Source of the DNA: Roseibium sp. TrichSKD4
Lineage (GTDB): Bacteria > Pseudomonadota > Alphaproteobacteria > Rhizobiales > Stappiaceae
NCBI RefSeq assembly: GCF_000148725.1
Contig: NZ_GL476319.1
Span: 515,772-579,771 of the forward strand
Direction of reading: 5' to 3'
DNA: 64,000 nt
Under the pieces are notes generated by a model. That model did no database searches and had not been told where the DNA came from. It saw nothing but the letters and a program-made list of their open reading frames with translations. The position numbers were made by a program, and so were the translations under genes. Within the stretch, counting starts at the first letter, position 1; the number at the start of each line of letters is the position of its first letter. Shown piece after piece: positions 5,984 through 60,511 of this stretch.

Positions 5984-8653
5984 TCAGCCGCGTGATTTGC
6001 GAAGCGTCGCCTGTGCTGCTGCCAAGCGGGCAATCGGCACACGGAAAGGCGAACAAGACACGTAGTCCAGATCGACACTTTCACAGAAGTGGATAGATGA
6101 CGGGTCGCCGCCATGCTCCCCGCAAATGCCGAGCTTGATATCAGGCCGTGTGGACCGTCCGCGTTCAGCCCCGATCTTGACCAACTCACCTACGCCGTCC
6201 TGATCAAGAGAGACAAACGGATCTTGTTCGATCAAACCTTTGGCTTGATAGGTCCCGAGGAAAGAGGCCGCATCATCGCGCGAGATGCCAAAGGTTGTTT
6301 GCGTAAGATCATTGGTTCCAAAAGAGAAAAACTCTGCTGACTTGGCGATTTCCGCACCTTGCAGGGCTGCACGCGGCAGCTCGACCATTGTGCCAACCTG
6401 ATATTCGATCGTGGTGCCGGTTTCTGTTGCAACAGCTTCGGCCATGGCTTCAATCCGGGAGCGAACCAGATCCAGCTCGCCTTTGAGACCAACCAAAGGC
6501 ACCATGATTTCAGGAACAACAGGCGCGCCAGTGATCTTGGCCGCCTCCACTGCAGCTTCAAAGATCGCCCTCGCCTGCATTTCCGCGATTTCCGGATAGG
6601 AAACGAGAAGTCGGCACCCGCGATGGCCCAGCATGGGGTTGAATTCCTCAAGCTCCAACGACCGTTCACAGAGCTTTTGCGCATCCACGCCCATGGCTTT
6701 CGCGACATCAGCCAGTTCTTCATCCGTTTTCGGCAAGAACTCATGGAGCGGCGGGTCCAAAAGACGGATTGTGACCGGCAAACCCTTCATGATTTCAAAG
6801 ATTTCAGTGAAATCCTTCCGTTGCATTGGAAGAAGTTTCGAAAGGGCTGCGCGGCGGCCATTCTCCGTTTCGGCAAGGATCATTTCACGGACAGCAACAA
6901 TCCGCTCGCCTTCAAAGAACATATGTTCGGTCCGACATAGACCGATGCCTTCCGCACCAAACTCACGAGCAACACGCGCATCGGCAGGTGTTTCCGCATT
7001 GGTGCGAACCTTCATGCGGCGGACCCTGTCAGCCCAACCCATCAAGGTGCCAAAATCACCAGATAGTGTTGGCTGCAACATGGCGACCTGACCGGAAAGG
7101 ACCTGCCCAGTTGCGCCGTCTATCGTGATGATATCGCCCTTTTTCAAGGTGCGACCAGCAGCAGAAACAGTCCCGTTTCGATAGTCAATGCGAAGCATAC
7201 CGGCACCCGACACGCACGGTTTACCCATGCCGCGCGCCACCACTGCAGCATGGGAAGTCATGCCGCCGCGGCTCGTCAAAATGCCTTCCGCCGCATGCAT
7301 TCCATGAATGTCTTCCGGACTGGTTTCAACGCGCACCAGAATAACAGGACGTCCAGAAGCCTTCGCCTCTTCAGCCTCATCAGACGTAAAGACGATTGCG
7401 CCGGAAGCAGCCCCTGGAGACGCGGGCAGACCAGTTGCAACAATGTCGCGTTCGGCTTTCGGGTCGATGGTCGGGTGAAGCAACTGGTCCAAAGCACCTG
7501 GCTCAACACGCCCCACAGCTTCATCTTCGTTGATCAAACCTTCCGCAGCCATATCAACGGCAATCTTAAGTGCCGCTTTTGCGGTCCGCTTTCCAGAGCG
7601 CGTTTGCAACATCCAAAGTTTGCCCTGCTCGATGGTGAACTCCAGATCCTGCATGTCGCGGTAGTGCTCTTCCAGCTTGTCGCAATAGGTCTGGAACTCC
7701 GCAAACGCTTCCGGCATCAGCGCTTCAAGAGAGGCCTTGCTGGACCCTGCTTCCTTTCGTGCTTTTTCGGTAATGTCCTGCGGCGTGCGGATACCGGCCA
7801 CAACATCCTCGCCCTGGGCATTTACGAGGAACTCGCCATAAAGAGCCTTTTCTCCAGTCGATGGATTTCGGGTAAAGGCAACGCCGGTGGCTGACGTTTC
7901 ACCCATGTTGCCAAAGACCATGGCCTGAACGTTGACCGCAGTGCCCCAGTCGCCCGGAATTTCATGGAGGCGGCGGTAGGTCTTCGCGCGCGGGGTCTCC
8001 CAAGACCCGAAGACAGCGCCAATTGCGCCCCAAAGCTGCTCGTGCGGATCCTGCGGGAACGGACGTTCAAGCGAGCGCTCGACGATTGCCTTGAATTCCT
8101 CGATGATCTTGATCCAGTCATCAGCGGTGATTTCCGTATCAAGCGACAGTTCGTTCTTGTCCTTGTGATCCTCAAGAACCTCTTCAAACTCGTGATGGCC
8201 CACGCCGAGAACAACATCGGCATACATCTGAATGAACCGGCGGTAACTGTCATAGGCAAAGCGCATGTCGCCGGAAGAGGCGCCAATGGCCTTGACCGTT
8301 TCGTCGTTCAAGCCGAGGTTCAAAACCGTATCCATCATGCCCGGCATAGACACGCGTGCACCGGAGCGAACGGAAACCAGCAAAGGCTTATCACCGTCGC
8401 CAAACTTGCGGCCGGTTGCCTGACCAACGGTCTCAAGCGCAGCATTCACCTGCGCTTTCAGCTCATCGGGATAGGTTTCTCCGTTTGCGTAATACCATGT
8501 GCAGACTTCGGTGGTGATGGTGAAACCGGGCGGTACAGGCAGGCCGAGACTACTCATCTCGGCAAGGTTGGCCCCTTTGCCTCCCAGAAAGTTCTTCATG
8601 TCTGCAGCACCTTCTGCAGACCCATTACCGAAATTCAAGACCCACTTGGTCAT
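5984..8653 (-). CDS. ppdK: Pyruvate, phosphate dikinase
   Basis: Interconverts pyruvate + ATP + Pi and phosphoenolpyruvate + AMP + PPi, a C3/C4 anaplerotic or gluconeogenic step. The 889-residue protein has the N-terminal nucleotide-binding domain ('NFLGGKGANLAEM', 'SVRSGARVSMPGMMDTVLN'). The swivelling phosphohistidine domain follows ('GGMTSHAAVVARGMGKPCVSG', His in TSHAA). The PEP-utilising TIM barrel closes it ('GLCRTEHMF', C-terminal 'GICGEHGGDP' with the catalytic Cys). Length matches the family. ATG at 8653 follows GGGGGAGTAGGA; a longer in-frame reading to 9133 has no homology-like sequence. It is divergent from the TPR gene at 8955. Confidence 0.97.
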   Translation of the reverse strand: MTKWVLNFGNGSAEGAADMKNFLGGKGANLAEMSSLGLPVPPGFTITTEVCTWYYANGETYPDELKAQVNAALETVGQATGRKFGDGDKPLLVSVRSGARVSMPGMMDTVLNLGLNDETVKAIGASSGDMRFAYDSYRRFIQMYADVVLGVGHHEFEEVLEDHKDKNELSLDTEITADDWIKIIEEFKAIVERSLERPFPQDPHEQLWGAIGAVFGSWETPRAKTYRRLHEIPGDWGTAVNVQAMVFGNMGETSATGVAFTRNPSTGEKALYGEFLVNAQGEDVVAGIRTPQDITEKARKEAGSSKASLEALMPEAFAEFQTYCDKLEEHYRDMQDLEFTIEQGKLWMLQTRSGKRTAKAALKIAVDMAAEGLINEDEAVGRVEPGALDQLLHPTIDPKAERDIVATGLPASPGAASGAIVFTSDEAEEAKASGRPVILVRVETSPEDIHGMHAAEGILTSRGGMTSHAAVVARGMGKPCVSGAGMLRIDYRNGTVSAAGRTLKKGDIITIDGATGQVLSGQVAMLQPTLSGDFGTLMGWADRVRRMKVRTNAETPADARVAREFGAEGIGLCRTEHMFFEGERIVAVREMILAETENGRRAALSKLLPMQRKDFTEIFEIMKGLPVTIRLLDPPLHEFLPKTDEELADVAKAMGVDAQKLCERSLELEEFNPMLGHRGCRLLVSYPEIAEMQARAIFEAAVEAAKITGAPVVPEIMVPLVGLKGELDLVRSRIEAMAEAVATETGTTIEYQVGTMVELPRAALQGAEIAKSAEFFSFGTNDLTQTTFGISRDDAASFLGTYQAKGLIEQDPFVSLDQDGVGELVKIGAERGRSTRPDIKLGICGEHGGDPSSIHFCESVDLDYVSCSPFRVPIARLAAAQATLRKSRG

Positions 8654-8954
8654 TCCTACTCCCCCTGTCGTGCTCGTGAACTGGCAGCGAGCCGAAATAT
8701 TGCACTGCACATTCCTGCTATGGGAGACGAGGAGCCGCAAGGCCTTTTTTCGTCGAATACCGGTTTCGTGACAAATATGCGACAAGGTGCCCATTCTGCA
8801 TATGCACGCCCTGCAAGAAGATTCGGCCAGATTGTTTTGATTTTTAACTGAAAACTCAGCCAGTTCTCGCTGGAGAACTTGCCCGACCGCCTTATTGAAG
8901 CCATTGTCCGTAAGACATAGTGATAAAAAGCCCCGTTCCTTCCTGAGAGGTGTC
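8654..8954. promoter_or_regulatory. Divergent intergenic region with inverted repeat at 8862-8879
   Basis: This 301-bp region separates ppdK (minus) from the TPR gene (plus) and must hold both promoters. A perfect 7-bp inverted repeat, AGTTCTC-(4)-GAGAACT, occupies 8862-8879. It could be an operator or an RNA hairpin in the leader of the plus-strand gene. I see no convincing gene here. Confidence 0.4.
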
Positions 8955-10757
8955 ATGACCAACAGTTCCAACACGTTCCGCCGCACCGGTGCCCTTTGCG
9001 GAAAATGGAGACAAGCCGCTTTGGCCAGTGTTGCAGTGTTGGCCCTGAGCACGTCCGCCCTTGCTGAGGCGAAGCCCGGAGATTTGCTTTTAAGTGAGGA
9101 ATATCTGGGCACACCGCCAGACCTGCCGATCACCCTGTCCGGCAGCTATCTGTCTGGATGGATCGCGGGCTTTAACAACGACTTCGGTGCAGCCGCGGCC
9201 TTTTTTCAGGAAGCCTTAAACGCTGACAACACCAATGACGGGCTTTTGGAGCGCACATTCCGGTTGAAGCTTGCCAATGGCGAAATGATTGAGGCCACTC
9301 ACTATGCGCAGGTTCTGGAAGACCGGGATAAAGGGAACTTCCTGAGCACGCTGGTTCTTGGAAGTGACGCTATCCTGAAGGGAGACTACCAGCAAGGTGC
9401 GACCATTTTCGGTGAGCCGGTTTCCGGCCCCCTTGCACAGCTGTCAACCGGGATAGCCAATGCCTGGGCGCTTTATGGGGCGGGACAGCTGGATGGCGCA
9501 TTTGAACAAATTGATCGCTTGAGCGGACCAGAGTGGTTCATAGCTTTCAAGGAATATCACATGGGCATGATTGCCTTTGCCGCGGGGCAAAAGGAACGTG
9601 CTCTTGATCACATCGAAAACGCGTTTCAGGCCGACAGCGGCGCCATCCGCATTGTGAACGCCTATGCCCGAACTCTTGCTGCAAATGGTGACAAGGACAA
9701 GGCACTGGACGTTCTGGATGAATACAATGCTTTGATGAACGGGCATCCGCTGCTTCTCGATACCCGTGCCACTGTGGCTGGTAACGCCCCGATCCCGCCA
9801 ATGATCGTGGATCCGGCAGTCGGTATCGCAGAGATCCTGTTTGGCATTGGCTCGGCAATCGGGCGGGATGGCGGGGAAGAACTGTCCATGTCCTATTTGC
9901 GCCTCGCGCTCCATCTTGACCCCAAAGCAGAATTTGCAGCCGTTGCCCTTGGCGGCATCTATGAGCGCTTGTCCCAGCCCGCACAGGCCATCGCCGTTTT
10001 GGAAAAAATTCCGACAGGCAGCGTCCTTAAGCGCAATGCGGAAATTCAAGTGGGTCTGAATTATAACGCGCTGGAACAACTCGATCAGGCGCGTGATCAC
10101 CTGAGCGCCTTGATCGAAGATGACCCCAAAGATGTTGAAGCGATCCTGACCCTTGGCAACATTCTGCGATCTCACGAGAAATTTGGAGAAGCAGAGGCCA
10201 TCTACACCAAGGCAATCGACAGCCTTGACGAAATCACCTCTGAGAACTGGTTGGCCTTCTATTTCCGCGGCATTTGCCGAGAGCGCCTGAAGAAGTGGGA
10301 CGCAGCCGAAATCGATCTTCGCAAGGCGTTGGAACTCAACCCGGATCAACCGCTAGTCTTGAACTACCTTGGGTATTCGCTCGTTGATCAAGGCCTGAAG
10401 CTAGATGAAGCGCTGGGCATGATCGAAAAGGCAGTCGAACTGCGTCCGAATGATGGGTATATCGTCGATAGTCTCGGCTGGGTCTATTACCGGCTTGGAC
10501 GTTATGAAGAAGCTGTGAAAGAACTGGAGCGCGCTGTCGAGTTGCGTCCGGCCGATCCGGTTATCAACGATCACCTTGGTGATGCTTACTGGAAAGTCGG
10601 TCGCCGTCTGGAAGCTCGCTTCCAGTGGAATCATGCCCGCGATCTGGAGCCGACAGAGGAAGAGCTACCGAAGATCCTCGACAAGATCGCAAATGGAATG
10701 TCGGAAGAAACCGGCAAAGACGCTGCCAAGGCCGAGGGCGGCGAAACCGACGACTGA
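8955..10757 (+). CDS. Exported tetratricopeptide-repeat protein
   Basis: A 600-residue protein with a Sec-type signal (basic start, then 'ASVAVLALSTSALA' with cleavage near AEA) and many TPR-like helix pairs over most of its length. The clearest are near the C-terminus: 'ALELNPDQPLVLNYLGYSL', 'AVELRPNDGYIVDSLGWVYYRLGRYEEA' and 'AVELRPADPVINDHLGDAYWKVGR'. Such proteins in alphaproteobacteria are envelope scaffolds of mostly unknown partner. ATG at 8955 with GAGAGGTG upstream is chosen; an in-frame ATG at 8895 would put 20 extra residues before the signal peptide. The acidic C-terminus is low-complexity. ispE follows 11 nt later, suggesting an operon. Confidence 0.85.
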   Translation: MTNSSNTFRRTGALCGKWRQAALASVAVLALSTSALAEAKPGDLLLSEEYLGTPPDLPITLSGSYLSGWIAGFNNDFGAAAAFFQEALNADNTNDGLLERTFRLKLANGEMIEATHYAQVLEDRDKGNFLSTLVLGSDAILKGDYQQGATIFGEPVSGPLAQLSTGIANAWALYGAGQLDGAFEQIDRLSGPEWFIAFKEYHMGMIAFAAGQKERALDHIENAFQADSGAIRIVNAYARTLAANGDKDKALDVLDEYNALMNGHPLLLDTRATVAGNAPIPPMIVDPAVGIAEILFGIGSAIGRDGGEELSMSYLRLALHLDPKAEFAAVALGGIYERLSQPAQAIAVLEKIPTGSVLKRNAEIQVGLNYNALEQLDQARDHLSALIEDDPKDVEAILTLGNILRSHEKFGEAEAIYTKAIDSLDEITSENWLAFYFRGICRERLKKWDAAEIDLRKALELNPDQPLVLNYLGYSLVDQGLKLDEALGMIEKAVELRPNDGYIVDSLGWVYYRLGRYEEAVKELERAVELRPADPVINDHLGDAYWKVGRRLEARFQWNHARDLEPTEEELPKILDKIANGMSEETGKDAAKAEGGETDD

Positions 10758-59056: not shown

Positions 59057-59077
59057 ATGCCCGACTTGATCGGGCAT
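59057..59077. repeat. Dispersed-type palindromic repeat element
   Basis: ATGCCCGA-CTTGA-TCGGGCAT is a perfect 8-bp palindrome in the sequence context CTCGTC...CCATTG. I recognise this type as short palindromic repeats scattered in alphaproteobacterial genomes. Only one copy is evident here. The region 58996-59164 has no gene of its own; the repeat abuts the AT-rich nuclease gene. Confidence 0.6.
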
Positions 59078-59164
59078 CCATTGAATTCCAGAACCGGTGA
59101 ACTGGGCGCAATACCGCCGCTGGAACGCTAGAAAGCACACAGTTTAGTGCAAAGCGGAATGGCC

Positions 59165-60499
59165 CTATGGTTCTGGCGTCAGACCACTGTCACGATGACA
59201 AAAAATGTCTCGACTTGACCGCCACCCGACTTTATCAAATCGCTGTTTTTCTAATGTGTTCCGTCTTTGATCATTAAGCCAACCGAAGTATTTAAATTTG
59301 ATTTGAACTGCCAACTTAGAAACTCCAAAATACTCAGAAAGACCAGAAAGCAATTGATTAAAAACAAATAGATTACACCGCTGATCATCTACATAAATAA
59401 ACCCAAACCCTTTATCCCTTATATCCAATTCAGTTCTCAGTTCTTTCGTTTTTTCTGCAAATTGAGCGTTGGGCATTAATAAATGAGATGCGAAACTATT
59501 TGCTTGAAACTCGAGACGCTCGAAATTGAAGCTCTTTCTCGAGGGTTGGCCAACAATTAAATCATTCTCTAATACAGTCTCCGACCTAATATACTGGTCA
59601 TGCCTTAAATAAAAATGCCCAATTTCATGAGCCAGCGTAAATCTTTCTCTATTTTTATTTTCATACAAAAAAATTTGTTTTATCCGGCGATCGAAATTTG
59701 CTGTCCCCAAAACCGACGCTCTATCTTCGCCTTGGTTTGGACCATTTTGAAAATCAACCATCAAGGAAAGTCGAGCGCAAAGATCCACAAGGTTTACTTT
59801 TCCGCTGTCATAGTTGGCAACCTTTAACGCATCATCCGCTGCGTTCCTGATTTCACTGTCGGCTACATACGGAAGGCTGATCTCTTTCGGTATTTGTGTC
59901 TGCTTTACAGAAAATATGTTTTCTGAATCAATGTCGGAAAACATGCTCGAAAGTGATCCATAGTACTTCCGAAGGTAATAACCTGAGAATTTAAGCGGCT
60001 TCGTCGCCCCATTATTTCCAGAAAACTGGGCTTTAACCAGAGAGGGCTCAGCACAAGCAGAGCCTTTGCGATCCAGAACAGTTTCAAATCCATTCCGATC
60101 GTACTTAATTATTCCAATGTTGTTATCATCTGCGACGTTCTTTGCCCCAGACTGCAGACTAGAAGAAACAACAAAAACACCTTTCACAGCTTTTCCAAAA
60201 AGACGACCAATCTTTTCACTAAAGTCATTCACATAGATCTCAGCAATGTTTCCATCATGATTTTTACATTCAAAGACTATCCGAATATGAGGGTCTTTCC
60301 TGCCCTTTTTAAAAACTTCAATAACAACGTCCAGATTTACGTTTGCTTTTCGAGCATTACAGTAATAGTTTTTCTTTTTATAAATTTCACACAGTTCTGG
60401 AGGATACACTCCAAAAACAAGCTCACCAGAATCCTTTTGTTCCAAAAGATAATCATAAAAATTATCTTCCAGCTCATTTCCTTTTTGAACCGTATTCAC
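59165..60499 (-). CDS. Mrr-like restriction endonuclease domain fused to ImmA/IrrE metallopeptidase
   Basis: About 444 residues (numbered from TTG 60511), AT-rich unlike its neighbours, so probably acquired. The N-terminal part (about 10-150) looks like a PD-(D/E)xK nuclease of Mrr/REase type: E13 ('GNELEDNFYDYL'), D61 ('LDVVIEVF'), E81-x-K83 ('VFECKNHDG') and then 'GRLFGKAVKGVFVVSSSLQSGAKNVADDNNIGIIKYD'. The C-terminal half is a COG2856 (ImmA/IrrE) zinc peptidase with H295-E-x-x-H299 ('LAHEIGHFYLRHD') and a third ligand near E334 ('LEFQANSFASHLLMP'). The protease class normally cleaves a partner XRE repressor, absent here. GTG 60499 is preferred; TTG 60511 is possible. The last ten residues may derive from repeat DNA. 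Confidence 0.8.
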   Translation of the reverse strand: MNTVQKGNELEDNFYDYLLEQKDSGELVFGVYPPELCEIYKKKNYYCNARKANVNLDVVIEVFKKGRKDPHIRIVFECKNHDGNIAEIYVNDFSEKIGRLFGKAVKGVFVVSSSLQSGAKNVADDNNIGIIKYDRNGFETVLDRKGSACAEPSLVKAQFSGNNGATKPLKFSGYYLRKYYGSLSSMFSDIDSENIFSVKQTQIPKEISLPYVADSEIRNAADDALKVANYDSGKVNLVDLCARLSLMVDFQNGPNQGEDRASVLGTANFDRRIKQIFLYENKNRERFTLAHEIGHFYLRHDQYIRSETVLENDLIVGQPSRKSFNFERLEFQANSFASHLLMPNAQFAEKTKELRTELDIRDKGFGFIYVDDQRCNLFVFNQLLSGLSEYFGVSKLAVQIKFKYFGWLNDQRRNTLEKQRFDKVGWRSSRDIFCHRDSGLTPEP

Positions 60500-60511
60500 A
60501 TCGACTCTCAA

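Follow-up and report, generated by a model that had tools for sequence, protein, structure and literature searches.

Why should one gene join a nuclease to a peptidase of the ImmA/IrrE (M78) family, whose members are known mainly as repressor cutters? The question is raised by a gene of Roseibium sp. TrichSKD4 located in a 64,000-nucleotide stretch of contig NZ_GL476319.1 (positions 515,772 to 579,771), which we call the window. We suggest that it encodes a single-gene nuclease-protease switch, most likely directed against phages or mobile elements, a reading to which we give somewhat less than an even chance. No model for an M78-nuclease fusion was found in PADLOC or NCBIfam, nor did we find a paper on an M78-PD-(D/E)xK fusion in the titles and abstract starts of the open-licence literature, among the matches listed. 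As to the sources cited by accession below, we take PMC7159879 to be Kaur et al. 2020 and PMC9519451 to be Vassallo et al. 2022.

Two enzyme domains in one chain

The fusion gene, delimited by its open reading frame and Pfam matches, spans 59165..60499 on the reverse strand, as do all its features below, and encodes 444 residues from a GTG start. Pfam detected Mrr_cat (25.2 bits, cut-off 21; residues 56-137) and Peptidase_M78 (54.7 bits, cut-off 22; residues 273-405) in the window protein, both positions being counted from an upstream TTG codon. With both domains above their cut-offs in one chain, the nuclease-metallopeptidase fusion proposed in the first-pass annotation is borne out. The catalytic residues it named, E81-x-K83 and H295 of the HEIGH motif, are right in the TTG numbering and correspond to E77/K79 and H291 of the 444-residue protein, which is numbered from the GTG hereafter.

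The N-terminal nuclease region of the PD-(D/E)xK (Mrr_cat) type covers residues 1-190 (59930..60499), with the active site E77-C78-K79 at 60263..60271 and D57 at 60329-60331. The C-terminal ImmA/IrrE (M78) zinc peptidase domain comprises residues 213-410 (59270..59863) and contains the HEIGH motif (residues 291-295; 59615..59629) and E330 (59510-59512), both present in 13 of the 13 aligned family rows. By the roles assigned in M78 enzymes, we take H291, H295 and, as the third ligand, E330 to bind zinc, and E292 to be the base. A family signature, YVDDQRCN, follows at residues 369-376 (59372..59395). The region between the two enzymes, residues 139-212 (59864..60085), is variable and is a candidate for a cleavage or gating segment.

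E77, K79, H291, E292, H295 and E330 are invariant in all 13 rows, and D57 is kept in each of the 12 rows long enough to cover it. Both active sites are intact in the alignment of all 12 full-length copies, and both domains exceed the Pfam cut-off in nine of these, the window copy included. The others (loci L029, L037 and L038) have an M78 match above the cut-off, and the Mrr_cat match is below it (L029) or unreported (L037, L038); the E-C-K triplet is present in all three despite the weak or absent Pfam match. The HExxH motif and the downstream glutamate ligand place the window protein, as judged from its sequence, in peptidase family M78; the acidic residue, the E-x-K motif and the predicted fold place it in the Mrr_cat branch of the PD-(D/E)xK nucleases.

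Several other assignments were rejected. An inactive nuclease was considered because of weak NA-iREase1 matches in L028 and L034; these fall below the cut-off, and E-x-K is intact in the 13 rows compared. An M48 peptidase match was below the Pfam cut-off, and matches to RmrA/spr1629 were partial, covering the M78 part only. Pfam found neither a GAF domain nor an additional DNA-recognition domain in the window protein.

Predicted structure and the region between the enzymes

In predicted-structure comparisons, the nuclease half matched Can2/Cdn1/EndoMS-type enzymes, its structural matches being effector, repair and restriction nucleases; a nuclease fold is thus predicted for the N-terminal region, in line with the first reading of the sequence. 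The M78 half is closest to CapP and PprI, which its predicted structure matches. The confidence of the window model is moderate (mean pLDDT 66.5, pTM 0.45), so that it does not reveal how the two domains are arranged with respect to each other.

Residues 139-168 and 194-209 have pLDDT values below 50, and the low-confidence variable segment comprises residues 139-168 and 192-212. Mean identity among 12 sequences is 0.149 over residues 141-210, as opposed to 0.384 over residues 1-140 and 0.332 over residues 211-405. The inter-enzyme region also differs in length among family members, and the family alignment revealed neither a conserved motif nor an identifiable cleavage site in it. The sequence distances of the two halves correlate with each other (Mantel r 0.56, p 0.0002, 12 sequences), which argues that the halves have mostly travelled together.

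Two DNA contacts of PprI have counterparts in the peptidase half: R85 maps to R284, which is arginine in 11 of 13 members and leucine or glutamine in two, and F88 maps to F287, kept in 13 of 13. Because the R-x-R-F-T-x-A-H-E stretch is common in M78 enzymes, this conservation is no proof of single-stranded DNA (ssDNA) sensing and is only suggestive of it. PprI also uses R207 and R267 for ssDNA contact, according to the part of PMC10904395 consulted.

Gene start and genomic setting

An in-frame TTG gives a longer open reading frame variant (59165-60511), adding four residues to the 444-residue protein. We consider the GTG at 60499 the likelier start, since GAGAG can be read directly from the sequence 5 nt upstream of it and the starts of the relatives fall in the same alignment column. 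The GC content is 0.386 in the gene and 0.551 elsewhere in the window, and none of 301 windows of the same length is as low, which confirms the earlier description of an AT-rich gene. Pfam analysis of the neighbors likewise agrees with the flanks first described, an ECF operon and icd: on one side lie genes with YCII and DUF6596/sigma-70 region 2 (ECF-sigma) domains, and on the other the gene for monomeric isocitrate dehydrogenase (icd). All neighbors recognized by Pfam are housekeeping genes. The frame is open and both active sites are intact, which excluded a pseudogene.

The flanking repeats are a direct pair of AT-rich 16-nt sequences, of which one sits within the fusion gene itself, and two pairs of inverted repeats; none is convincing. 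Promoter-like sites (two found in the window, 3.1 expected) and terminator-like sites (four found, 1.8 expected) were uninformative. Downstream of the fusion gene, at 59057-59078 of the window, lies the perfect palindrome ATGCCCGACTTGATCGGGCATC, which occurs once in the window, with none expected in shuffled sequences; it may be a dispersed repeat. The icd DNA had matches at E <= 1e-60 in 15 of 385 genomes. In the six of these genomes that we inspected, over stretches of 17-19 kb, the gene order of the window around icd was kept in none, and a single YCII match appeared across the six surroundings (L132, 32% identity over 84 residues).

A rare and scattered family

The family consists of 17 loci. 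Twelve hold full-length open copies (the window, L001, L004, L005, L028-L033, L037 and L038), one copy runs off the end of its contig (L035), and four are broken or truncated (L003, L027, L034 and L036). Six loci are on viral contigs and two on plasmids, and eight come from genome data (the window, L001 and L031-L036). The full-length relatives, at 22-49% identity, retain the layout of nuclease followed by peptidase, so the pairing of the domains is not due to chance.

The closest relative, L001, belongs to a metagenome-assembled genome of the Sneathiellales (49% identity over residues 5-442) and was the single relative found by scanning genome contigs. Protein searches of plasmid and phage records led to copies on a Spirosoma plasmid (L004) and in an Acinetobacter sequence (L005/L006), with 24-25% identity over about 90% of the length, and to a Rhizobium plasmid copy with the C-terminal part only (L003); further queries of plasmid records yielded no new family members. 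Profile searches added three genomes (G617, G482 and G651), an edge-cut copy in a fourth (G607), the viral contigs L027-L030 and, among the best 80 of 89 loci, the viral contigs L037 and L038. None of the viral-contig relatives was found with the window protein alone as query; they were found with alignments. In phage records, only the Acinetobacter sequence was found, in two records, and L030 as query added a partial match in a Salmonella phage. The Acinetobacter records are themselves peculiar: L005 (CAKLQH020000007.1), named 'Acinetobacter phage MD-2021a', looks like a bacterial chromosome with nrdA, nrdB and metE, and L006 (NZ_CP104448.1) is a 4.09-Mb A. baumannii record labelled as a plasmid. 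Genes annotated only as 'ImmA/IrrE family metallo-endopeptidase' (L004) or 'DUF955' (L005) can hide a nuclease.

The fusion family is rare and scattered. Among 385 genomes of one class, the centre genome (G001) was the sole match at E <= 1e-15. Searching 398 genomes of one phylum at E <= 1e-12 gave 17 matched genomes, namely five with near full-length fusions (G001 included), two with broken or truncated copies (G454 and G640) and ten with the M78 part only. Of 369 genomes from the class to which G617 belongs, three matched at E <= 1e-30, all of them family members already known.

All 13 family rows contain the pattern [YFIVL][VIL][DN]x[QK]xxN around D371/N376. It is absent from all 62 other M78-type open reading frames, which were collected from 74 viral loci by motif with redundancy left in; as the pattern was drawn up with the family already in view and the comparison set is redundant, the signature shows distinctness rather than function. 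Copies are also set apart by base composition. Their GC content is below that of the rest of their own locus in 13 of 13 cases, as in L031 (0.305 against 0.520), and in nine of these no window of the same length is as low; such windows were found for L029 (3 of 47), L038 (3 of 67), L004 (21 of 87) and L037 (18 of 38).

Among the defective copies, that of L027 is interrupted by an in-frame stop and that of L034 is split into two overlapping frames. L003 (9307-10681) has only the peptidase half and L036 (1560-3915) only the nuclease half, and in each a transposase adjoins the lost half.

We did not count as family members L039 (M78 only by Pfam), L040 (a standalone M78 protein), or H4 and H5, plasmid-record matches to the C-terminal part only. 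In L040, a viral contig, the 248-residue M78-type open reading frame (7719-8465) stands directly before a Drt8 reverse transcriptase gene (8546-10132, 342.5 bits), so that M78 and DRT genes are neighbors here for the second time. L039 (2093-8066) holds a type II restriction-modification set of two methyltransferases and REase_II, followed by a 625-residue M78 protein whose long N-terminal part has no Pfam match.

Neighborhoods and alternative roles

PADLOC was applied to one to four neighbors of eight of the 17 loci (L004, L027, L029, L030, L032, L034, L036 and L037) and identified established defense genes at two of them, L004 and L027, and a candidate at L037. In L027, about 0.1 kb separates the matched start from the end of an upstream Drt6 reverse transcriptase gene (519.7 bits), and the surrounding phage region also encodes a replication initiator and a terminase; the copy beside Drt6 is the broken one. 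On the L004 plasmid, the copy is preceded at about 0.3 kb by an nSTAND3 gene with a sub-threshold Mrr_cat match (PADLOC candidate PDC-S73), and 5 kb downstream, on the other strand, lies a gene for a CBASS-type cyclase (513 bits), the only cyclase recognized among the relatives. The candidate at L037, PDC-M04A, is 0.4 kb from the copy, and an Rz-like spanin gene is 7 kb off.

Other neighbors are of phage or mobile type. The L028 copy has a phage DNA polymerase gene on one side and a head-tail adaptor gene on the other, and that of L038 is surrounded by Mu-like transposition genes, a terminase and a portal gene. L029 has an endolysin and a DNA invertase nearby, and L030 has a ParA-like gene and, downstream, a phage origin-nicking protein gene. 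L003 is a conjugative plasmid with the transposase upstream of the peptidase half. Among the eight genome-data loci, three have a mobile-type neighbor: the L031 gene is 41 bp from tRNA-Sec, the L034 copy lies about 3 kb from an integrase gene and adjoins a YagK/YfjJ-type gene (at its cut-off), and the nuclease half of L036 adjoins a transposase. No mobile or known defense gene was recognized near the window gene (Pfam of neighbors), L005 (annotation), L001 and L033 (Pfam, one neighbor each), L032 (PADLOC, two neighbors) or L035 (open reading frame listing). The link to defense suggested in the first-pass annotation is therefore drawn from some relatives (Drt6, CBASS cyclase, nSTAND3) and not from the window, with its housekeeping neighbors. 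Across the family, neighbors are not always housekeeping genes, as Drt6, the cyclase, the phage genes and the integrase demonstrate.

Do these neighbors include a partner for the peptidase? Among those checked, a directly adjacent XRE/HTH gene is present in only two loci. In L032, such a gene lies close upstream with Pfam HTH matches below the gathering cut-off; in L038, the upstream HTH gene matches PHROG regulators/repressors and looks like the phage's own regulator. MarR, LysR and TetR genes occur near L033 and L005, and a HigA-type gene lies 7.7 kb away in L004. XRE-like open reading frames were also recognized by eye, at a distance of about 6 kb in L027 and of 2 kb in L036. That only two loci have an adjacent XRE gene fits self-contained action without proving it; the two upstream HTH genes would suit a partner-cutting enzyme and so count against a switch. 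The latter would be expected if the protein were a restriction enzyme of a Type IV-like kind that is regulated by its M78 module. Its nuclease would then attack modified or foreign DNA on its own without self-cleavage, and the M78 domain would either read DNA or cleave an XRE-like regulator encoded elsewhere. Mrr_cat is indeed a restriction-type domain, and M78 enzymes cut partner repressors in the CapP-CapH and PprI-DdrO pairs described in the consulted part of PMC10904395. We nevertheless hold this account to be rather unlikely, given the other loci with no directly adjacent XRE gene recognized among the neighbors checked, the phage-like nature of the L038 regulator and the lack of a further DNA-recognition domain by Pfam.

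The mobile contexts raise another explanation, that the fusion is a tool of phages or plasmids rather than of their hosts, acting in superinfection exclusion, counter-defense or lysogeny control. Phage genes on both sides in L027, L028 and L038, the phage replication gene of L030 and the share of viral contigs and plasmids (6 and 2 of the 17 loci) speak for it. However, viral and plasmid collections select for such settings, which are partly their product; the genome-data loci have a mobile-type neighbor in a minority of cases, and prophage-carried defense genes look alike. A phage or plasmid tool is unlikely on balance.

The four broken or truncated loci among 17, as for costly genes, might instead indicate that the peptidase is a brake: by degrading the nuclease or splitting it off, it would terminate the response or keep the cell from harming itself, much as an antitoxin or a timer does. 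An XRE-peptidase acts in PD-lambda-2, a toxin-antitoxin-like defense system, but is itself the toxic part there, as far as the consulted part of the source describes (PMC9519451). We regard a brake as improbable, given that in L036, next to a transposase, the peptidase half is gone and the putative nuclease half is kept. Lastly, a host DNA-repair or stress-response enzyme, as the structural neighbors PprI/IrrE and EndoMS/NucS and the housekeeping genes around the window copy, L001 and L005 would suggest, is very improbable for a gene so rare and scattered, with GC below its locus in every measured copy and four broken copies.

A proposed single-chain switch

The fusion itself, the intact sites, the predicted folds, the correlated halves, the patchy occurrence and some defense or mobile neighbors support the single-gene switch. 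In a resting cell, the PD-(D/E)xK nuclease would be held back. When ssDNA or damaged DNA, such as phage replication produces, meets the C-terminal M78 domain, the zinc peptidase would become active and cut the variable linker, either its own or that of a neighboring copy. The released or unlocked nuclease would then degrade DNA and stop the infection, perhaps at the cost of the cell. That the fusion protein is its own substrate is the simplest reading, because no partner is regularly adjacent among the neighbors checked.

We infer the linker as the cleavage target, the activation of the nuclease and the protection, and the ssDNA trigger is suggested by homology to PprI and CapP. ssDNA stimulates both proteases, PprI and CapP, upon which they cleave their repressors, and PprI needs its GAF domain for this activation, as described in the consulted part of PMC10904395; the absence of a GAF domain by Pfam counts against PprI-like activation of the window protein. 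Proteolytic unmasking of a pronuclease has been shown in other defense systems (Tuck et al. 2025, PMC12799240, as far as consulted). The complete proposal, a one-protein immune switch in which an ssDNA-sensing peptidase cuts the linker and activates the nuclease with neither a repressor nor a second messenger, is tentative, and we would not bet on all of its parts together. If it is true, sensing, proteolytic signalling and DNA destruction lie within a single gene, and an M78 peptidase wired to a nuclease is the direct trigger of an effector.

Comparison with known systems

The M78 half resembles CapP of the CapH/CapP regulator of CBASS, from which the fusion differs in having a nuclease in the same chain; CapP is not known to carry one, and its substrate is CapH, a repressor that is a protein of its own. 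Neither a CapH repressor nor a CBASS operon was found among the window neighbors scanned. PprI/IrrE is, to our knowledge, also devoid of a nuclease. The Deinococcus enzyme has a C-terminal GAF domain, lacking in the window protein by Pfam, and cuts DdrO (PMC10904395, in part). On the nuclease side, the PD-(D/E)xK fold is shared with Can2/Card1/Cdn1 and EndoMS/NucS; in the window protein, the partner module is an M78 peptidase. Those enzymes carry CARF or other modules.

Proteases appear in other phage-defense systems as well, and the following likenesses rest on the parts of the sources consulted, in which no M78-PD-(D/E)xK fusion is mentioned. PD-lambda-2 is a HigB/XRE-peptidase system of three genes without a restriction-type nuclease, described in a paper that also lists an ImmA/IrrE peptidase domain (PMC9519451); the likeness lies in phage defense with a peptidase. 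NucA-trypsin fusions (System 3) indicate that a nuclease and a protease may share one polypeptide, although their enzymes belong to unrelated families and their operons contain further genes (PMC7159879).

A parallel in logic is offered by Hachiman, AVAST, Lamassu, DRT and canu, in which a nuclease and a protease are likewise combined in phage defense as coevolving partners; in Hachiman, AVAST and canu, MBL nucleases are activated by trypsin-like or caspase partners (Tuck et al. 2025, PMC12799240). There, an MBL-fold pronuclease and a trypsin-like or caspase protease are encoded by separate genes, whereas the window fusion places enzymes of other families, a PD-(D/E)xK nuclease and a zinc peptidase, in one chain and, unlike those pairs, comes without an attached core immune gene. 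Further proteolytically activated enzymes have been suggested (Tuck et al. 2025), and if the switch proposed here is true, metallopeptidases would join trypsin and caspases as proteases by which nucleases are activated (PMC12799240).
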